A stretch of 64,000 bases of DNA from Myxococcus stipitatus DSM 14675 (lineage in GTDB: Bacteria; Myxococcota; Myxococcia; Myxococcales; Myxococcaceae). Shown here piece after piece: positions 4,032-13,404 of this stretch (the stretch's first letter is position 1; each line of letters opens with the position of its first letter). Below the pieces are notes generated by a model, which saw only the letters and a program-made list of their open reading frames with translations, did no database searches and was not told the origin of the DNA. The stretch is from positions 868,001-932,000 of the forward strand of contig NC_020126.1 in assembly GCF_000331735.1 (NCBI RefSeq). Reading direction: 5' to 3'. The position numbers and the translations under genes are program-made.

Positions 4032-4094
4032 CGCGAGAACCCATGCCGCTCGTCACGATGAATCGCGAGAGCTTTGATTGCATCTGGAGTGATG

Positions 4095-4796
4095 ATGACG
4101 ACAGACATTTCCAATGAGCGAATCCGAGTGGCCCTCCTGGAGGACCAGCAGGTCTTCAGGGAGAGTCTGGTGTTGGTCCTGGAGAACGCGGGGATGGATG
4201 TGGTGGCGCGCTGCTCGCAGACGCCGCCCTTCCTGGCGCGGGTGCGGGAGCACATGCCGCATGTCGCCGTGCTGGACCTGAGGCTGGTGCCTCCGGACCA
4301 GGATGGGACGGAGACGGGGCTGACGGTGCTGCAGTGCCTGCACGACTTCTACCCGTCGGTGAAGGCCCTGGTGTTGTCGAGTCATCACGAGCAGGACGTG
4401 GTGGAGCAGTGTCTCCACGCGGGCGCGGCGGGCTACCTGTGGAAACACAACGTGGGCTGCGCGGACGTGGTGGAGGCCGTCACCCGGGTGGCGCGGGGAG
4501 AGCGGCTGATGCCCACCGGGCTGTCCTGGGGCCCGTCCGTGCCGGGCTTCCTGCCGCAGGAGGAGGTGCCCCTGGGCGGCGTGGAGCTGGGGCTGCTCAC
4601 GCCCCGCGAGCGCGAGGTGCTGGGGTACGTGGCGGCGGGCGCGGACAACCTCAAGATCGCCGCGTGCCTGAGCATCACCGAGCGCACGGTGAAGGCGCAC
4701 ATCACCAGCATCTACAAGAAGCTGGGCTCGGAGAACCGCACGCAGCTGGCCGTCCTGGCGTGCCAGCTGGGCGTTCACCGCCCGGCAGGGGTGTGA
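4095..4796 (+). CDS. LuxR/NarL-type response regulator
   Basis: About 233 residues: a receiver domain (ALLEDQQ acidic pair; phospho-acceptor Asp in VLDLRL; conserved Lys in YLWKHN), a linker, and a C-terminal GerE/LuxR helix-turn-helix (LTPREREVLGYVAAG, then NLKIAACLSITERTVKAH). Adjacent ATGs lie at 4092 and 4095; TGGAG at 4085-4089 is better spaced for 4095. The receiver has an unusual insertion after its Asp (LVPPDQDGTETG). It probably controls transcription from phased repeats just upstream, and its partner kinase may be the divergent gene at 2593-3819. The regulon is unknown; the dioxygenase/methyltransferase pair immediately beyond is a candidate. Confidence 0.9.
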   Translation: MTTDISNERIRVALLEDQQVFRESLVLVLENAGMDVVARCSQTPPFLARVREHMPHVAVLDLRLVPPDQDGTETGLTVLQCLHDFYPSVKALVLSSHHEQDVVEQCLHAGAAGYLWKHNVGCADVVEAVTRVARGERLMPTGLSWGPSVPGFLPQEEVPLGGVELGLLTPREREVLGYVAAGADNLKIAACLSITERTVKAHITSIYKKLGSENRTQLAVLACQLGVHRPAGV

Positions 4797-4972: not shown

Positions 4973-5995
4973 TCAGGGCTTGACGGCGGTCACCAGCTCG
5001 AAGGGCCCACCGCCGAGCACCCGCGTCTGCTCGAAGCCCGCCTCCTGGAGCATCCGCTGGTAGAGCTCCACCTCGCGCAGCCGGCTGACGCACGAGTCCA
5101 CGCCGATGAGGAAGTACGTCCAGAAGAACTGCGCGGCCAGCCGCTCCCCCGTGCGGAACTCCTCGCAGATGATGACGCGTCCGCCCGACGGCAGCGCCGC
5201 CCACGCGGACTTCAGCAGGTGCTGCGCCGTCTGCGCGGACCAGTCGTGCAGCACGCGCACGAACATCAGCACGTCATAGCCGCCGGGCAGCGGCTCCCGC
5301 AGGAAGTCCCCAGGCACGAAGCCCAGCCGGGCGGGCCCCAGGTCGAAGCGCTCCCGCGTGCGCTCCACCAGCGGCTGGGTGGCGGGCAGGTTGTAGACGT
5401 CCACGCGCGCGGTGGGGTGCTCGCGCGTCAGGTGCGCCGCGAGGCTGCCATCGCCTCCGCCCACGTCGAGTACGCGCATGCCGTCGCGCCACAGGTGCCG
5501 GGCGTGCTGCCGCAGCGACTCCAGGATGGGCGGCAGGCCCACGGCCATGCTCGTCTCGAAGCCCTCCAATTGCTCGGGCGTGCGCAAGGGCCAGTCGAAG
5601 TCGTCGGGCGAGATGGAGTGCTGGCCGCGCAGCACCTCGGGCAGGCGCCCGTGCAGCTTGCGCCAGGCGAACTTCTCCCGGTCTCTCTCCCGCGACTGAG
5701 GCCCGAGGACGGCCTGGGCCGCCTCGCGCAGCCCTGGCACCGCGCTGTAGCGCGCCGACGCGAGCGCGTCCGTGTCCTGCTCGCGCTTCACCAGCCCCAG
5801 GCTCTCCAGGCAGTCCAGCAGCTTGTAGAGCCGGCCCGGCACCAGCGAGTGCCTCGCGGACAGCTCCGCGAGCGTGATGGGGGCGGGCCCCTCCAGCGAG
5901 TCGAGCAGCCCCAGCTGGAGCGACGCCTCCACCACGTCCACCGCCTTCGCGCCATTGTAGAGCAGGTGCAACAGCGCTCGCGGCGACTCCGTCAC
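4973..5995 (-). CDS. SAM-dependent O-methyltransferase (plant-type OMT fold)
   Basis: A 340-residue methyltransferase. The N-terminal ~100 residues form the winged-helix dimerisation domain; the AdoMet motif I VLDVGGGDG is at 176-184 and the catalytic HDW, whose His acts as the base in this family, is at 250-252. The family methylates phenolic hydroxyls or, less often, N or C atoms of small molecules in secondary metabolism. The GTG start at 5995 overlaps the stop of the upstream dioxygenase homologue by four bases (GTGA), implying translational coupling and a shared pathway. Frame upstream of 5995 is only antisense-type shadow sequence. The most plausible substrate is a tryptophan-derived aromatic compound; that is inference. 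Confidence 0.88.
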   Translation of the reverse strand: MTESPRALLHLLYNGAKAVDVVEASLQLGLLDSLEGPAPITLAELSARHSLVPGRLYKLLDCLESLGLVKREQDTDALASARYSAVPGLREAAQAVLGPQSRERDREKFAWRKLHGRLPEVLRGQHSISPDDFDWPLRTPEQLEGFETSMAVGLPPILESLRQHARHLWRDGMRVLDVGGGDGSLAAHLTREHPTARVDVYNLPATQPLVERTRERFDLGPARLGFVPGDFLREPLPGGYDVLMFVRVLHDWSAQTAQHLLKSAWAALPSGGRVIICEEFRTGERLAAQFFWTYFLIGVDSCVSRLREVELYQRMLQEAGFEQTRVLGGGPFELVTAVKP

Positions 5996-6879
5996 GAGTC
6001 GCCCCGCGGCGCGGAGGACAGGCCCGCGTGCATGGGGCAGGCGCCGCTCACCATGGGAGGGGCGTAGGCGCTCATGGCGCCCTCCATGCAACCCTCGCGG
6101 CTCGCGCCGGGGGCATGGCCGCCCTCGCGCCGCCAGCTGGCCGTGAGCTCCACGCGCGCGTCCCAGAGGCTGCGGAACAGGGGCAGCGTCATGCGCCCCG
6201 CCAGCACCTGCGTGGGCAGGCCGTCCAGCGCCTTCACGGAGCGGTCCACGCCGATGGTGCGCCGCACCAACTGGAAGTGCGCGTGCAGCCAGCCCTGGAA
6301 CGCCTCGTCGACGTCCAGCAGCTGCTCGCACAGGCGCTTCAGGTCATCCGGTCCGCCCCGGTAGATGCCGAGCACCGTCTGGCCGCGCCGCGCGAGCAGT
6401 CGCTCGAACGCCAGCGCCAGGCCCTCCGCCGCCTTGCGGAACATGTTGTAACCCGGTGACTCCTGTCCGCTGCCATTGCCCAGGCTGCGGCGGATGACCT
6501 GGTAGGTGTCGGGCGTCATCGTCTCCAGCACTCCCAGCTCGCTGGACAGGCCGCGGACGATGCGCACGACGCGCTCCAGCCGGGCGGACGCCGCCCACAG
6601 CGCGTCCCGGTCCAGCTCCGCCACGAGCTCGACGGTCTCCCGCGAGGCCAGCTTCAGCCACAGCTCCTGCGCCTGATGCACCACCTGAAACATCAGCTCG
6701 TCGTGGGCGACGCGCTCCGTCTCCCCCGACTGCAAGGACAAGAGCTGGGGGGTCTTCAGATAGACCTCGTAGTCCAGCTCTCCTCGGCCCACCCACTTCT
6801 TCAAGAGGGGGTTGAAGAGGGGGGTATCCAATTCTTGCCGCAATTTTTCCGCGAAACTGTAACCGGGTGACGTGTGCAT
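5992..6879 (-). CDS. Tryptophan 2,3-dioxygenase-superfamily haem protein, atypical
   Basis: A 295-residue protein with the TDO core: YLKTPQLLSLQ (40-50), HDELMFQVVHQAQELWLKL (59-77) with the distal His59, and WLHAHFQLVRRTIG (197-210), where His201 aligns with the axial haem ligand. The loop that follows in true TDOs, GTGGSSG, which binds the amino-acid substrate, is missing and reads DRSVKALDGLP. A C-terminal tail of about 40 residues (with CPMH) is extra. It therefore keeps haem binding but probably not canonical kynurenine-forming chemistry; superfamily members in natural-product pathways include monooxygenases such as MarE. RBS GGAGGG precedes ATG 6879. It is coupled to the downstream methyltransferase; no kynureninase or formamidase is nearby. 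Confidence 0.82.
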   Translation of the reverse strand: MHTSPGYSFAEKLRQELDTPLFNPLLKKWVGRGELDYEVYLKTPQLLSLQSGETERVAHDELMFQVVHQAQELWLKLASRETVELVAELDRDALWAASARLERVVRIVRGLSSELGVLETMTPDTYQVIRRSLGNGSGQESPGYNMFRKAAEGLALAFERLLARRGQTVLGIYRGGPDDLKRLCEQLLDVDEAFQGWLHAHFQLVRRTIGVDRSVKALDGLPTQVLAGRMTLPLFRSLWDARVELTASWRREGGHAPGASREGCMEGAMSAYAPPMVSGACPMHAGLSSAPRGDS

Positions 6880-7039: not shown

Positions 7040-7435
7040 TCAGGGGACTGCGGGTGGTCGAGGCTTGAGTCGGAAGGTGCGCAGCCGGTTGGCGAGGTCC
7101 TCTCCCTGGACGCTCTTGGAGATGTATCCATCCGCGCCGGAGGCCAGTGCGAGCGAGCGCAGCTTGGACTCATCCGAGGCGGAATAGAGGATGAACTTCG
7201 TCTTGGCGGAGGCGTACTGCCGGGCCAGGTTGACGACCTTGTCGCCCTTGAGGGCGGGGAAGTTGACGTCGATGAGGACGAAGTCCGGCTCCGATGCGCT
7301 GACCAGGTTGGAGACACCCAGGGCCGACGTGTGCGTCAGCACCTCGAAGCCGTAGCTGCTCAGCGAGCGCTGAACGAGGTCGAGCAGGTCCGGGTCATCG
7401 TCCACCACCAGGACGCGTGCTTTTTCTTCAGCCAT
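7040..7435 (-). CDS. Single-domain response regulator (CheY-like)
   Basis: A 131-residue receiver without an output domain. LVVDDD, the phospho-acceptor Asp in LIDVN and the Lys in ISKS (Ser instead of Pro after Lys) are visible. The start at 7435 overlaps the stop end of the hybrid kinase gene (7428) by eight bases, so the two are co-translated and the receiver is the likely terminal acceptor or competitor in that kinase's relay. It is closely similar to the receiver at 1977-2381 across the whole domain, suggesting a duplication. A proline-rich C-terminal tail follows the receiver. Confidence 0.9.
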   Translation of the reverse strand: MAEEKARVLVVDDDPDLLDLVQRSLSSYGFEVLTHTSALGVSNLVSASEPDFVLIDVNFPALKGDKVVNLARQYASAKTKFILYSASDESKLRSLALASGADGYISKSVQGEDLANRLRTFRLKPRPPAVP

Positions 7436-10370
7436 GGCTTCTCCCTAGATGCTTGCGAATCATCTCGAGCAACTGGTCACGATCAAGGGGCTTGGTGAGG
7501 TACGCGGTGCAGCCCGCCGCGTGTGCTTTGTCTTGATACTCCCGCCCCGCATGCGCCGTCACCGCGATGACCGGCACGTTGGCCACGGAGGGCACCGCAC
7601 GCAAGCGGCGTGTTGCCTCCCAACCATCCAGGCGCGGCAGGGACAGGTCCATCAAAATGAGGTCTGGATTGTCGCGCGTCGCGCGCTCCAGACCGTGTTC
7701 TCCATCCTCCGCCTCGATGACCTCGAACAATCCACCGAGGTATCGCCGGACGATGTCCCGATTCTGGGCACTGTCTTCCACATACAAGATGCGCGGCAGC
7801 CTTCCCGCGGTCGCCGCGCGCTGTGACAACAAGAGGCCCTTGGCTTGAGCGATGACATCCTCGAGCGCGTGGCCTCCCTTCTTCACGAAGCCCGCGAAGC
7901 CGTCTCGCAGGAGTGCTTCCTCATCGGACGTGAGCGACTTGCCGGTGAGCACCACGACAGGGACCTGGAGCTTCTCGGCGCGCAGGCGCCGCAGCACCTC
8001 GAAGCCATCCAGGTTGGGCATCATCAAGTCCAGCACGACGAGCGACGGCGGAGACACGCGCGCCTTGAGCAGCGCGTCCTCGCCGTTGCGCGCCTCGGCG
8101 GTGCTGAAGCCGGCGCGGCGCAGGTTGCGGCTGACGAGCTCGCGCGTGGCCGCGTCGTCATCCACCACCAGCACCTCGCCCACGCCGGCCGCGGTGCCGT
8201 TGGTGGGACCCAGGCAGCGCTGCACCACCTCCACCAGCCGCTCCGGCTCCACGGGCTTGACCAGGTACTCGCACGCGCCCAGCGAGAAGCCGCGCGCGCG
8301 CTGCTCCTCCACGGAGATGAGGATGACGGGGATGCCCGCCAGCGCCGGCTCGCTCTTGAGCTGGCTGAGCACGGACCAGCCGTCCAGCTTGGGCAGGTGG
8401 ATGTCCAGGAGGATGGCCTGGGGCTTGAGCTCGCGGGCGCGCTTGAGCGCGGCGATGCCGTCCTCGGCCACGACGACCTTGAAGCCCGCGGGCGCGAGCT
8501 GGCCGGTGACGAGCTGCTGGATGAGCGGGTCGTCATCCACCACCAGCACGGTGCTGCCCGGCTGGGCGACGGCGTGGAGGTGGTGGGCCACCTCCGCCAC
8601 CGGCACCGCGCGCTCCACGCTGGTGGGGCCGTCGGAGGGCGCGTCCGTCATGTTGGGCAGGCGCACGGTGAAGGTGGTGCCGCGGCCCAGCGTGGACGTC
8701 ACGGTGACGTTGCCGCCCAGCACGCGCGACAGCTCCCGGACGATGGCCAGGCCCAGGCCCGTGCCGCCCACCTTGCGCGTGGTGGAGCCGTCCACCTGGC
8801 GGAACTTCTCGAAGATGAAGGGCAGCTGGTCGGAGGGGATGCCGACGCCGGTGTCCTCCACCGTCATCACCACCTCCTCGCCCGCGGGCACCACGCTCAG
8901 CGCCACCTCGCCCGTCTCGGTGAACTTGGCGGCGTTGCTCAAGAGGTTGAGCATGATTTGCCGCAGCTTCAGCGCGTCGGTGCGGAGGATGCCCGCGGCC
9001 ACGTCGATGTGCGTGGTGAGGGCCACGTCCTTGCCCTTGAGGTACTCCTTCACCGTGGCCATGCACTCGTCGGCCAGCTCGCGCACGTCCACGGCCTCGC
9101 TGACGACCTCCACCCGGCCCGCTTCGATCTTGGACAGGTCCAGGATGTCGTTGATGAGCGCCAGCAGCGTCTTGGCGTTCGTCTTCACGACGTTGAGGTC
9201 GCGCCGGCCGTGGGCCGTCAGGCGCGAGCCCTCCTCGCGCATCAGCAGGTCGCAGTAGCCGATGATGCCGTTGAGGGGCGTGCGGATCTCGTGGCTGAAG
9301 TTGGCCAGGAACTCGCTCTTGAGGCGGGCGGCGGCCTCGGCCTCGCGGGCGCGCTCCTCCTCGTTGCGCTTGGCCACCGCCAGCTCCTGGGCCAGCCGGT
9401 CCAGGTCCTCGTTCTGCTGGCGGATGATCTCCATCTGCAGCGCGCGCTGCTGATAGGACGCCAGCGAGCGGGCGGACACCGCGCGCGTGCGCTTGATCTC
9501 CTCCAGGCTCGCGGCCAGCTGCTTGTTGGCCGCCTCCAGCTCCGCCTTGGACGCGCGCAGCATCTCCTCGTTCTGCTTGCGCTCGGTGATGTCCTCGGTG
9601 ACGCCGAGCAGGTAGCTGGCGTCGCCGGAGCCGTCCATGAGCGGCAGCTTGCGCGTGGCGAAGATGCGGTCCACGCCGCCGGCGCGCGCGACCTCCTCGA
9701 AGGCCCGCATCTTCTTGGAGGCGAGAATCTCCGAGTCGATGGTGATGAACGAGTCGGCCTGCTCCGGCGGGAAGTAGTCGTGGTCCAGCTTGCCGAGCAG
9801 CCACTCCTTGGTGACGTTGAACGCGTCGGCGAAGGTCTTGTTGACCACCACCAGCCGGCGCGTCTTCGCGTCCTTCACGAAGAGGACGAAGGGCAGCGCG
9901 TCCAGGATGTTGCCCAGGATCCAGTTGGTGCGCAGCAGCTCTTCCGTGGTGGCGTCGTGGCGCAGCTGCGCGCCCGCCAGCGGCAGCTCGCGGCGCAGCA
10001 CGGGCGCCAGGCGGTTGAAGTGGTCCTCGCTGACGTAGTCGCGCGCGCCAGCGCGGGTGCTGGCCTCCAGCGTGTCGTCACTCCACTCGCGCGACAGCAC
10101 CACGAAGGGCAGCTCGCGCTGCTGCTTGCGCCACAGCCCCTGCGCCTCGGCGAAGCCCAGGCCCGGCACCTCCGAGCCACAGACGACCAGCGACCAGGAG
10201 CGCGCCAGCGCGGCCTCCAGCGCGGGGAGCGTGGTGGCGCGCTCCGCGCTGGCGGTGACACCCGCGTGGCCGAGCGCCTCTTCCACGCGCTGGCACTCGC
10301 GCTCGCTGCCCACCACCAGGAGGGTGGCGGTGTCCGTCGGCGGGACGAGGGGAGAGAGGGTGTTGACCAT
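7428..10370 (-). CDS. Hybrid sensor histidine kinase with three C-terminal receivers
   Basis: A 980-residue cytoplasmic hybrid kinase. In order: an N-terminal receiver-like domain (about 15-130) that lacks the phospho-acceptor Asp (LVVCGSE, Cys64 in its place); PAS (150-265); a long coiled coil (265-350); HisKA with His360 (NFSHEIRTPLNG); HATPase with N479, DTGVGIP (507-512) and GTGLGL (537-542); then receivers with Asp656, Asp781 and Asp908. There is no membrane segment. It lies between the FIST gene upstream (stop 10374, three bases away) and a one-domain receiver downstream (8-base overlap), forming a compact relay. Three receivers with no visible HPt domain imply either phosphate sinks or an HPt encoded elsewhere. 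The ATG at 10370 follows directly from the FIST stop. Confidence 0.95.
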   Translation of the reverse strand: MVNTLSPLVPPTDTATLLVVGSERECQRVEEALGHAGVTASAERATTLPALEAALARSWSLVVCGSEVPGLGFAEAQGLWRKQQRELPFVVLSREWSDDTLEASTRAGARDYVSEDHFNRLAPVLRRELPLAGAQLRHDATTEELLRTNWILGNILDALPFVLFVKDAKTRRLVVVNKTFADAFNVTKEWLLGKLDHDYFPPEQADSFITIDSEILASKKMRAFEEVARAGGVDRIFATRKLPLMDGSGDASYLLGVTEDITERKQNEEMLRASKAELEAANKQLAASLEEIKRTRAVSARSLASYQQRALQMEIIRQQNEDLDRLAQELAVAKRNEEERAREAEAAARLKSEFLANFSHEIRTPLNGIIGYCDLLMREEGSRLTAHGRRDLNVVKTNAKTLLALINDILDLSKIEAGRVEVVSEAVDVRELADECMATVKEYLKGKDVALTTHIDVAAGILRTDALKLRQIMLNLLSNAAKFTETGEVALSVVPAGEEVVMTVEDTGVGIPSDQLPFIFEKFRQVDGSTTRKVGGTGLGLAIVRELSRVLGGNVTVTSTLGRGTTFTVRLPNMTDAPSDGPTSVERAVPVAEVAHHLHAVAQPGSTVLVVDDDPLIQQLVTGQLAPAGFKVVVAEDGIAALKRARELKPQAILLDIHLPKLDGWSVLSQLKSEPALAGIPVILISVEEQRARGFSLGACEYLVKPVEPERLVEVVQRCLGPTNGTAAGVGEVLVVDDDAATRELVSRNLRRAGFSTAEARNGEDALLKARVSPPSLVVLDLMMPNLDGFEVLRRLRAEKLQVPVVVLTGKSLTSDEEALLRDGFAGFVKKGGHALEDVIAQAKGLLLSQRAATAGRLPRILYVEDSAQNRDIVRRYLGGLFEVIEAEDGEHGLERATRDNPDLILMDLSLPRLDGWEATRRLRAVPSVANVPVIAVTAHAGREYQDKAHAAGCTAYLTKPLDRDQLLEMIRKHLGRSHG

Positions 10371-10373
10371 GGT

Positions 10374-11534
10374 TCAGTTCGCCCCGAACACCAGCGTGGT
10401 GAGCGTGGTGTTGATGTGGAACCCTGAATAAATCTCGAAGTGCACGTTCATCCCCGCGGCGGTGGGCGCGGCCTTCAGGGTCTCCGCGAGCTGGGACACC
10501 GTGTTCGTCGCGTGCGCGTACCACATGCGCCCGCCGCAGTGGAACAGGAGCGCGGCCTGCGGGTTCTGGACGCGCCGGGGCAGCTCGTCCGTGAAGAAGC
10601 CGCGCGTCATGCCGGCCATGTCGCCCAGCCGCATCAGCTCCAGCTCCGTGCCCTCCTCCAGCAGGTTGGCGAAGAGGATGGAGCCGTCCTCATTGGGCCG
10701 CCACGCGGCGCGGATGAAGTACTCGCGGCCCACGCGCAGCGCGGTGGGGCGCACCGCGAAGCCCTGTGGCGTGCCGAACTCCAGGTCCGGCACGTCCACG
10801 CCCAGGATCTCCGCGTAGCGCTTGGCGGCGGGCCGACCGTCGATCTCCAGCGCGCGCGTGTGGCTGTCATCCACCTTGGTGATGGTGAGCCGCTCCCCGG
10901 TGGGCACGTACCAGTGCGAGCGCAGCGCGGCCCAGGGCGCGTTGGTGCGGAACAGCGCCACCAGCACCGCGTCGGTGGCCACCTCTCCGTCCACGTGCAC
11001 CAGCGCGGACTGGCGCGCCGGGTCCCGGTTGTGGTCGCTGGCGCCGCCGCCCACGAGCACCAGCGTCTGGTTCTTCTCGAGGATGCCCAGCAGCAGCTCC
11101 TCTTTCTTGTAGCGGAAGCCATCGTCGATGACGAGGCCCACGCAGCGGCGCGAGTCCAGGTCCTGCTGACGCACGCCCAGCTCCTCGCACGCGCGCTTGA
11201 TGGCCATCTGCCCCGCGTTGATGGCGTCCACGGACAGCCCGGTGCCCAGGCCCAGGCCGACCTCCAGGTCGCCGGTGAGCGCGGCCATCACCACGCTGCC
11301 CTCGTGGATGCCGGTGTTGTCCAGCTCGCCCGCCGTCGTCGCGCCCACCAGCCGGGTACCCTTGGGCAGCCGCTCGCGCACGGCGCGGTTGAGCGCGTAC
11401 TGGTCGCGCTCCCGTGAGGCGAACATCGTCACCAGCACGGGAGGGGTGGGGCCCAGTTGGCGAAGCAGGTCCTCCGCGGCCGCAGCCGGCTCCTGGAGCG
11501 TGGTGCGAGCCGTCTGCATCTTCACTTGGGCCAT
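10374..11534 (-). CDS. FIST-domain sensory protein
   Basis: 386 residues comprising FIST_N (about 30-230; VLVTMFASRERD, GTRLVGATTAGEL, ALTGDLEVGLGLGTG) and FIST_C (about 235-375), ending in a family-like GFHINTTLTTLVFG. FIST domains are ligand-sensing modules, thought to bind small molecules such as amino acids, and are usually fused to or encoded beside signalling proteins. Here the gene is separate but immediately precedes the hybrid kinase, with a three-base gap, so the protein probably supplies the input for that kinase. ATG 11534 is preceded by a GGAGG-type RBS; the in-frame extension to 11891 lies antisense inside the cytochrome gene and is not coding. Confidence 0.92.
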   Translation of the reverse strand: MAQVKMQTARTTLQEPAAAAEDLLRQLGPTPPVLVTMFASRERDQYALNRAVRERLPKGTRLVGATTAGELDNTGIHEGSVVMAALTGDLEVGLGLGTGLSVDAINAGQMAIKRACEELGVRQQDLDSRRCVGLVIDDGFRYKKEELLLGILEKNQTLVLVGGGASDHNRDPARQSALVHVDGEVATDAVLVALFRTNAPWAALRSHWYVPTGERLTITKVDDSHTRALEIDGRPAAKRYAEILGVDVPDLEFGTPQGFAVRPTALRVGREYFIRAAWRPNEDGSILFANLLEEGTELELMRLGDMAGMTRGFFTDELPRRVQNPQAALLFHCGGRMWYAHATNTVSQLAETLKAAPTAAGMNVHFEIYSGFHINTTLTTLVFGAN

Positions 11535-11562
11535 GGAGGTCCTCCAGAGGTGGAGCGGCGGC

Positions 11563-13404
11563 TTAGAGGCCGCTCTTCGGGTGCCGGGTGTGACACGAGT
11601 CGGTGCACTGCTTGAAGGACTCTCGTCCTCCGCCGACGTACATGCTTTCGATGGGGCCGAACTTCGCGACGTGGCTGTCCGGATAGCTCTTGTGGCACGA
11701 CAGGCACGCGGCCTGGCTGGTGCGCTGGATGCTTTCCTTCGTGAGGTGACAGGACGCGCACTTCTCCAGCGGCGCGCCAAAGCGGTTGGAGCGCGAGTGC
11801 ACGAAGTGCGTGCGCACGAAGATGGGGCCTTCCAGCTCGAAGCCCAGCGGCGTGTGGCAGCCGGCGCACGCGGCGCGGTTGTCGTTGCCATGCAGCACCT
11901 GGGACAGCTCCCCGCCCTGGCTGTGGCACGTGTTGCACGGGCCCGTGGTGAGCTTGGCCTCCGTGCGCTGCTTGGTGCCCACCTGGATTTCGATGGTGCG
12001 CGAGGCCGGCAGGTCCTCGCCCAGGTACACGCGGCGGCCCTTCACCGTCACCAGGTACGTGCCCGGCGTGGCGTTGGCGGGAACCTTGTACTGCCACGTG
12101 TCCGTGTTGGGCCGGTCCCACAAGCCCTCTTCGGGGAAGAAGGCGCCGCGGAAGACGATGTTGGCGTAGGGCAGGATGGAGAACTGGGAGTACACCCCGT
12201 CCTCCTTCTCCGTCGCCACGGTCTGCTCGTTGACCTTCGGGTCCAGGAACGCTTCCAGGTCGATGACGGAGCGGATGGGTTGGATGTTCTGTGCGGGCCC
12301 AATGATTTGGGTCATCAACATCCGCTCCCGGTGCTTGCGGCGGTAGTACGTCGTCGTCGCATCGAAGAAGGCCCGATAGTACTGAATGCCCGCCGCGTTG
12401 AAGCCTCGGACGACGTCATTGTAGGACGGTAGACTTCCCTGGGGATGGAGCCTTTTGCCTTCCCCATCGCGAAGCGTGACTTGGAAGGTGATTTCTGACC
12501 CAGGGGCGTAGGTGCCATCCTGGCGGGGTGGGGTGCGGGCCTCCACGTCGATGCCGAAGCCGTAGGCGAACTCGGGGGCGCTCACCTGCTGCACGGGGAT
12601 GGAGTAGGGCGCGAAGGGGCGCAGGCTCCAGCGCAGGCGCAGGGAGGTGGTGCGCGGGCTCAGGCTGAACGTGCGCTTCTGCGCATGCTGGTACGCGTTG
12701 CGCACCTCCAGCAGGGCCTCCTCCTCGTAGTCCCGGGCGCTGTTGCAGTCGCGGGGCGTGGTGCAGTCGTACGCCGTCTGGATGGCGCGCAGGCGGCGCA
12801 CGAAGAAGTCGTCGGTGGTGCGGCGCTGGTGCTCGGCGCCGATGTTCAGCACCACGGGGGGGCCGGTGAGCACCCCGCGCGAGTCCACCGGCTCCACGAT
12901 GAAGAAGCTGGGGAGGTCCATCCAGGCGGCGCCCCGGTAGAAGCGCCGGCGCGTGTAGCGGCCGGGGCCGCCCAGCAGCACGGGCTCCTCGTCCACGGGA
13001 CGCAGCCCCACCCAGCCCACGCCCGCGAAGTCGCTGGTCGTGCGCAGGGCCCACATGCCGGTGTCGAACGTGGACCGCACCGACGCGCGGAGATCAATCT
13101 GGTTGATGTAGAAGGTGGAGCCCGCCCGCACGCTCAGCGGCTTGCCCTCGCCGTTGTCGACCTCCAGGGCCAGTCCAATGGGCTTGGGCGACACGGGGCG
13201 GCGCGCTGCTTCCACGTCCAGGTGCGCCGGGTCCGCCGTGGCCAGGGCGTCGTCGCCGGGTGAGCCGGCGTCCTCCGGCCCCCCGCACGCCGACAGCAAC
13301 GCGGCCAGCGCGACGGTGAGCAAGGCCCGACGGGCCGTCGGGCAGCCGAGCGAGCGGGGGGTACACGCTGCGCGCTGAGACCAGGGGGCTCCAAGTCCGC
13401 CCAT
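11563..13404 (-). CDS. Multihaem c-type cytochrome lipoprotein
   Basis: A 613-residue lipoprotein with a signal peptide and lipobox LLSAC (Cys40). Residues ~45-480 are beta-rich, Ig-like and haem-free; the last 125 residues hold CNTCH (490), CAGCH (513), CASCH (549) and CLSCH (567), plus CTDSCH (600), a non-canonical CxxxCH. This predicts four or five covalent haems on an outer-membrane or periplasmic face, of the OmcA/MtrC-like or decahaem-related class but shorter. Its role would be extracytoplasmic electron transfer; no partner porin or reductase is adjacent. It precedes the FIST-kinase operon by 28 bases and may be co-transcribed with it. A GAGGAGAG RBS supports ATG 13404. Confidence 0.85.
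   Translation of the reverse strand: MGGLGAPWSQRAACTPRSLGCPTARRALLTVALAALLSACGGPEDAGSPGDDALATADPAHLDVEAARRPVSPKPIGLALEVDNGEGKPLSVRAGSTFYINQIDLRASVRSTFDTGMWALRTTSDFAGVGWVGLRPVDEEPVLLGGPGRYTRRRFYRGAAWMDLPSFFIVEPVDSRGVLTGPPVVLNIGAEHQRRTTDDFFVRRLRAIQTAYDCTTPRDCNSARDYEEEALLEVRNAYQHAQKRTFSLSPRTTSLRLRWSLRPFAPYSIPVQQVSAPEFAYGFGIDVEARTPPRQDGTYAPGSEITFQVTLRDGEGKRLHPQGSLPSYNDVVRGFNAAGIQYYRAFFDATTTYYRRKHRERMLMTQIIGPAQNIQPIRSVIDLEAFLDPKVNEQTVATEKEDGVYSQFSILPYANIVFRGAFFPEEGLWDRPNTDTWQYKVPANATPGTYLVTVKGRRVYLGEDLPASRTIEIQVGTKQRTEAKLTTGPCNTCHSQGGELSQVLHGNDNRAACAGCHTPLGFELEGPIFVRTHFVHSRSNRFGAPLEKCASCHLTKESIQRTSQAACLSCHKSYPDSHVAKFGPIESMYVGGGRESFKQCTDSCHTRHPKSGL

Follow-up and report, generated by a model that had tools for sequence, protein, structure and literature searches.

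The window, as we call the whole 64-kb stretch of DNA analysed here, spans positions 868001–932000 of the Myxococcus stipitatus genome, a single contig of 10,350,586 bases. On its reverse strand it carries a gene for a tryptophan 2,3-dioxygenase (TDO)-like haem oxygenase (5992–6879, 295 aa), recognised by Pfam family PF03301 and by its predicted structure, followed by a gene for an O-methyltransferase (OMT; 4973–5995, 340 aa with a GTG start). The two genes share a GTGA sequence of 4 nt (5992–5995, reverse strand) in which the TDO-like stop codon overlaps the OMT start codon. Within the window genus, 22 of 27 genomes have a start codon at this position (21 read from start lists and one, L013, from its junction sequence), which bears out the translational coupling to a small-molecule OMT proposed in the preliminary description.

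The OMT matches Pfam Methyltransf_2 (79.6 bits) and the Dimerisation domain. It carries VLDVGGGDG, which we take to be the SAM motif, and LHDW, whose His is presumably of the catalytic type; across 97 aligned sequences, one of which is the window OMT itself, the glycines and this His are at least 97% conserved. For two close pairs of genomes within the genus, dN/dS was 0.066 and 0.073 for the TDO-like gene and 0.127 and 0.180 for the OMT gene, and both genes are under purifying selection in these pairs. Values for distant pairs (up to 0.57) were set aside because we take the dS estimates for this GC-rich set to be too low.

The genes upstream of the pair, all on the reverse strand and with conserved synteny, encode a multihaem c-type cytochrome (11563–13404, the first gene of the block), a FIST sensor-domain protein (10374–11570, start approximate; FIST 107.9 bits, FIST_C 51.2 bits), a hybrid histidine kinase with PAS_4, HisKA, HATPase_c and three receiver domains (7428–10370) and a single-domain response regulator (7040–7435; Pfam Response_reg). 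Four CxxCH motifs and one CxxxCH can be read in the cytochrome, for which a Pfam search yielded no family at E 1e-5. Downstream lies a convergent gene for a LuxR-type response regulator identified by Pfam (4074–4796, forward strand), also present in many Myxococcaceae loci. Neither a kynureninase nor a second TDO was found within the 64-kb window. Elsewhere, the genome encodes a canonical TDO with a GTGGS loop (10248781–10249563) and a canonical kynureninase (position 1158856, 468 bits).

A diverged member of the TDO superfamily

The TDO-like protein scores 89.4 bits against Pfam Trp_dioxygenase (cut-off 34.9), yet only 114.6 bits against NCBIfam trp_2_3_diox (TIGR03036), far from the equivalog cut-off of 390.7. 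It is distinct from the canonical TDO of the same genome, with which it shares 29% identity over an alignment with 54 gap columns, and was thus rightly described as an atypical homologue. Positions 135–261 of the 346 in the Pfam profile are unmatched, corresponding to an absent αF/αG insert.

An AlphaFold2 (AF2) model (pLDDT 87.6; helices at residues 142–164, 169–173 and 178–208), a check put forward in the preliminary description, returned the TDO/MarE fold. Foldseek placed MarE first (E 1.3e-10) with XcTDO nearly level (2.3e-10), and the structural matches listed, which share a TDO/MarE-type helical core, include MarE, TDO, IDO and PrnB. Structural alignment gave Z 24.3 and rmsd 3.0 over 238 residues with MarE (9CA3/8VYY; 23% identity) and Z 21.9 and rmsd 1.4 over 203 core residues with XcTDO (3bk9_F; 36% identity). 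MarE is also among the entries listed by PDB searches, and the comparison with it here is by structure only. On the basis of the model, the protein is predicted to belong, as a diverged member, to the haem-dependent aromatic oxygenase (HDAO/TDO) superfamily, with a trimmed, MarE-like architecture.

Residue conservation was assessed in an alignment of 142 sequences from 63 loci of the order and 79 loci of named genomes, in which certain organisms occur in both sets and one sequence is a canonical TDO. His68 (codon 6676–6678), Tyr37 and the axial His201 (codon 6277–6279) are invariant, all codons given here being on the reverse strand. XcTDO H55, in the sequence HQ..ELW, pairs with His68; the distal histidine had been placed at His59, which is present in only 81 of the 142 sequences, while the assignment of His201 was correct. 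Arg130 (codon 6490–6492; 141/142) lies at the position of MarE R118, the substrate carboxylate Arg in the available part of PMC11904535, so that distal His, carboxylate Arg and axial His of the TDO set are all present. Tyr126 is found in 132 sequences and replaced by Phe in 10. A GNGSG loop (6466–6480) at the position of TDO PASG and MarE DATG retains the PASG Ser as Ser137 (142/142). The GTGGS loop is absent, as had been noted: at this site the protein reads V-K-A-L-D-G-L-P, an ALDGL loop (A-L-D-G at 6220–6231), the Thr position being filled by Leu in 121 of the aligned sequences and by Thr in 20. The conserved histidines suggest that the protein binds haem.

A C-terminal CPMH sequence was considered as a haem-attachment motif and rejected, being confined to some myxobacterial lineages and missing from others. 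The C-terminal tails vary in general: in the Corallococcus-type loci of genus g6 (L038–L048) they are low-complexity, rich in His, Ala and Pro and very variable in length, extending to about 300 residues past the conserved domain, and in other lineages they are different or short.

Distribution of the gene pair and of a three-gene cassette

A search of the order gave a match at E <= 1e-10 in 109 of 145 genomes, many of which hold the canonical TDO only. We read all loci of the 57 window-type orthologues (at least 48% identity), and cassette genes were counted by tblastn. The OMT lies within 4 kb downstream of the TDO-like gene in 53 of the 57. Of the remaining four, two (L032 and L033) stop short of the OMT position, one (Pyxidicoccus fallax, L018/L081) has the OMT 5.5 kb away and one (L056) has a kynureninase-like gene and lacks an OMT over the 4 kb read. 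In the window genus, all 27 genomes have the TDO-like gene and 26 have the OMT within 4 kb. Loss of linkage in all relatives had been named as an outcome that would refute the proposed small biosynthetic unit, and this is not what is seen. The 5.5-kb stretch in P. fallax (L081:7880-13400) holds genes that appear protein-kinase-like by eye.

In many relatives a third gene, encoding a kynureninase-like protein of about 380 aa, lies between the other two; at L035, assigned to Corallococcus by its match to L088, the gene begins with a GTG that overlaps the stop codon of the TDO-like gene. The earlier statement that no kynurenine pathway genes lie beside the pair holds for the window itself as regards kynureninase and a second TDO, although not for the cassette in these relatives. 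The full cassette of TDO-like, kynureninase-like and OMT genes is present in 22 of the 57 orthologues of the order, and three more have the middle gene with no OMT visible. A scan of named genomes, overlapping the order set in organisms and so not independent of it, gave 79 loci among the 184 relatives found; the nearest named relatives of the window locus were Myxococcus. Among the 44 of these loci listed with at least 48% identity, 31 have the full cassette, 11 the TDO-like gene and OMT only, one a kynureninase-like neighbour only (the contig ends) and one neither nearby. The 35 more distant loci listed comprise at least 15 with a kynureninase-like gene and no OMT, at least one with both (Catenuloplanes) and 19 in which neither was seen, counts that are lower bounds since certain contigs are short. 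The contig of the Labilithrix locus (L113) ends inside the kynureninase-like gene.

The full cassettes among the loci listed span two phyla. In the Myxococcota they occur in Corallococcus, Citreicoccus, Hyalangium, Sorangium, Nannocystis and two Myxococcales MAGs, and in the Actinomycetota (15 loci) in eight Nocardia, two Micromonospora, Kribbella, Microlunatus, Jiangella, Acrocarpospora and Rhizohabitans. Next to the cassette, eight of 20 loci examined outside the Myxococcaceae encode an amine-oxidase-type flavoprotein of about 530 aa, located after the OMT in seven Nocardia (L099, L102, L103, L105, L106, L110 and L119) and before the TDO-like gene in Jiangella (L104); it was left out as a pathway member as it is not general. 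In Streptomyces griseus BIG105 (L152:5649-10117), short TDO-like and kynureninase-like genes stand between an upstream gene whose product appears ATP-grasp-like by eye and a downstream gene for a second, more distant protein matching Trp_dioxygenase (46.5 bits). A record labelled Comamonas sp. KCTC 72670 (L083) falls within Myxococcus on the tree, close to M. xanthus, and its synteny is that of Myxococcus, so the record is probably mislabelled or contaminated.

The middle protein is predicted, from sequence and model, to be a class-V PLP protein with kynureninase as its nearest relative. A PDB sequence search returned Pseudomonas fluorescens kynureninase (PfKynU, 1QZ9) at E 3.1e-33, followed by a cysteine desulfurase at 6.9e-22; the AF2 model (pLDDT 93.9) matched 1qz9 at Z 45.5, with a cysteine desulfurase next at 42.2. 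Two middle proteins scored 46.9 and 44.2 bits against Pfam KYNU_C (cut-off 27), and 103.1 and 85.0 bits against the NCBIfam kynureninase model TIGR01814, under its cut-off of 246.4; the SufS model, at 113 bits, is likewise far under its own cut-off of 475. As in PfKynU, the PLP Lys (K213 in the middle protein) and Asp are present in all 73 middle proteins, and the counterparts of S36, W256 and T282 in 71, 73 and 66 of them. Unlike PfKynU, the H204 site is Gln in 72 of 73 and the Y226 site His in 50, residues that we take to be mostly desulfurase-like. By its sequence, the protein departs from a standard kynureninase.

A quick tree of 98 rows, with SH-aLRT supports only and long branches flagged, was built from 96 of the 141 TDO-like sequences (leaving out L124 and most of the near-copies that the order search had given) and two canonical TDOs as outgroup. 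Rows with an OMT and no middle gene form two clusters: one holds Myxococcus/Pyxidicoccus (support 94), the other Archangium lansinium and genus g7 (96, flagged). The cassette-state label changes three times, the third change being P. fallax with its displaced OMT, which sits inside the Myxococcus/Pyxidicoccus group. Two losses, with transfer as an alternative, would be the simplest history given that the middle gene occurs in Actinomycetota, Sorangium, Nannocystis and Corallococcus.

Where the middle gene is absent, conserved sites of the OMT and TDO-like proteins (95 sequences each) show only minor changes, none of them at a catalytic position named here: OMT 19, OMT 110 and TDO-like 115 are shared by both lineages, and OMT 25 and TDO-like 41 are confined to one. 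No close copy of the middle gene was found elsewhere in any of the 27 window-genus genomes, as the best matches are only 30–33% identical (E 1.1e-40 at best). Kynureninase-like copies at 39–44% identity to the cassette one occur elsewhere in three genomes of genus g3 (G043, G044 and G046; that in the Archangium genome G044 is 42% identical and lies at another site) and in G042, G092 and G137. A canonical kynureninase is encoded elsewhere in all 32 order genomes that have the TDO-like gene but lack the middle one (27 of the window genus, one Archangium and four g7). Replacement in trans by this enzyme is not singled out, because a canonical kynureninase is also encoded by 24 of the 25 order genomes in which the middle gene occurs (all but G143).

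The tree also bears on the idea that the protein is a plain second TDO for tryptophan catabolism, lying beside an OMT by accident. Its TDO fold and residues, along with the canonical kynureninase of the genome, are what such an enzyme would be expected to have. Against this, the 96 TDO-like rows form a branch separate from the two canonical outgroup TDOs (support 100, flagged), the linkage to an OMT spans two phyla, the loop is altered and the insert is missing; we regard this explanation as very improbable.

Where long flanks are available for Myxococcaceae and Archangiaceae loci, the cytochrome, FIST, hybrid kinase and receiver genes precede the cassette on the same strand, and the same order is seen in two distant Myxococcales MAGs (L116 and L118; TDO-like protein at 50%). 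Genes of this upstream block were unmatched at E 1e-10 in the flanks of the Sorangium, Nannocystis, Labilithrix and actinobacterial loci. The Myxococcaceae cassette is part of a FIST/histidine-kinase locus, and a functional tie to signalling may exist.

Proposed ring cleavage and its alternatives

We lean, by a modest degree, towards the TDO-like protein being a ring-cleaving, tryptophan-type dioxygenase, the first enzyme of a cassette that continues with kynureninase-like and methylation steps. A tryptophan-type amino acid would be bound via His68 and Arg130 over a His201-ligated haem, and its indole C2–C3 bond cut to give an N-formylkynurenine-type product. The kynureninase-like PLP enzyme would then carry out C–C cleavage to an anthranilate-type acid and alanine, with an O/N-methyltransferase acting last in the full cassette. 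Myxococcus and Pyxidicoccus would have lost the middle gene and retained the outer two, mostly translationally coupled, and the Myxococcus OMT might methylate the ring-opened product directly or an anthranilate-type acid from the separate canonical kynureninase. The Myxococcus pair thus appears to be what is left of a small pathway for tryptophan breakdown, and not a wholly new chemistry. The substrate, the ring cleavage and the methyl acceptor are all inferred. The acceptor is unexplained because the cassette lacks a formamidase or hydroxylase; it could be a carboxyl or an amine, or else a hydroxyl already present on the substrate.

Several observations run against this proposal. The TDO-like protein is not a TDO equivalog, and it is MarE rather than TDO that tops the structural lists. 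A kynureninase-like neighbour is missing from 19 of the 35 distant loci listed and from the whole window genus, and where present the protein falls under its NCBIfam cut-off and has what we take to be mostly desulfurase-like residues at two PfKynU sites. A second tryptophan-cleaving enzyme also needs a reason, because the genome already holds a canonical TDO.

The main competitor is a MarE-like monooxygenase, which would insert one oxygen into an indole amino acid, giving a 2-oxindole or C3-hydroxyl for the OMT to methylate. MarE is the top structural match, the αF/αG insert is absent and Leu replaces the loop Thr, as it does in the SLGGR of MarE (available part of PMC11904535); the OMT would find an acceptor in a hydroxylated product, and in Myxococcus the pair exists without the middle gene. 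An oxindole, however, would give a kynureninase nothing to cleave and be of no obvious use to the kynureninase-like partner in relatives, whereas an N-formylkynurenine-type product would provide a substrate; together with the weakness of the loop argument discussed below, this leads us to favour ring cleavage. In addition, over the core the protein is closer in identity to XcTDO (36% over 203 residues) than to MarE (23% over 238) with Foldseek E-values nearly level, and the PASG-loop Ser is present, unlike MarE DATG. The preliminary description had argued from the lost GTGGS loop and the absence of kynurenine genes to MarE-like, different chemistry. In many relatives, however, a kynureninase-like gene lies within the cassette. 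The loop argument is weak because human TDO with a MarE-like SLGGS loop still gives approximately 95% N-formylkynurenine from Trp, and MarE itself is reported to be primarily a dioxygenase in which monooxygenation is driven mainly by ascorbate (available part of PMC12312684). What stands of that proposal is a small unit of a TDO-fold protein and an OMT, with MarE as top match; different chemistry is not supported. We consider single-oxygen insertion unlikely, though the strongest of the alternatives.

Hydroxylation of another aromatic substrate, in the manner of TyrH/LmbB2 or SfmD, with the OMT methylating the new phenol, would account for the methyltransferase, and a haem hydroxylase of this type, LmbB2, is on record (available part of PMC3851162). 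The second Trp_dioxygenase-matching protein after the gene pair of S. griseus BIG105 also fits. Nevertheless, the protein has the distal His and the carboxylate Arg seen in Trp-binding enzymes, and the kynureninase-like gene suggests a Trp-derived substrate, making this explanation improbable.

Building on ring cleavage, the cassette could conceivably make a methylated kynurenine- or anthranilate-type signal that is sensed or controlled by the linked FIST protein, hybrid kinase and response regulators, although we would put the chances of this at little better than slight. In such a scheme the methyltransferase would cap the product of indole opening, following the kynureninase-like step or, in Myxococcus, with that step skipped. 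If true, it would represent an undescribed tryptophan-derived signalling module common to predatory myxobacteria, the biosynthetic part of which is also found in actinomycetes. More broadly, an odd TDO and OMT pair becomes a defined and testable three-gene pathway in two phyla, with natural variants lacking the middle enzyme. Natural TDO-superfamily loops (ALDGL, SLKG) beside a kynureninase-type partner bear on the question of one- versus two-oxygen insertion.

Comparison with known systems

The proteins of the cassette all fall into known superfamilies. No description of the cassette was found by word searches of the literature, whose coverage leaves out most subscription papers; PMC12633357 was dropped as a comparison as its oxygenase, in the part available, is a Rieske enzyme. 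The OMT resembles RedM, HIOMT/ASMT, CrtF-related (BchU-like) proteins and SibL, all two-domain SAM methyltransferases matched by phmmer at E 9e-22 to 2e-13, with 22ow the best match overall (E 1.4e-23). As judged from these sequences, its substrate is not readable from its homologues.

The TDO-like protein shares the distal His, Arg, axial His and PASG-loop Ser with bacterial TDOs (XcTDO, 2NW8 and others), and differs from them in lacking the αF/αG insert and GTGGS and in falling under the TIGR03036 cut-off. With MarE, which forms a 2-oxindole from β-methyl-Trp, it is predicted to share the HDAO fold and a single helix replacing TDO αE–H; distal His, Arg and axial His are all present, as is Leu at the loop Thr position. 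Both lack the αF/αG region, a trimmed α6 architecture described for MarE in the available part of PMC11904535. The loops set the two apart, SLGGR and DATG in MarE according to the same source and ALDGL and GNGSG here, and so do the cassette partners of the TDO-like gene, a kynureninase-like gene and an OMT.
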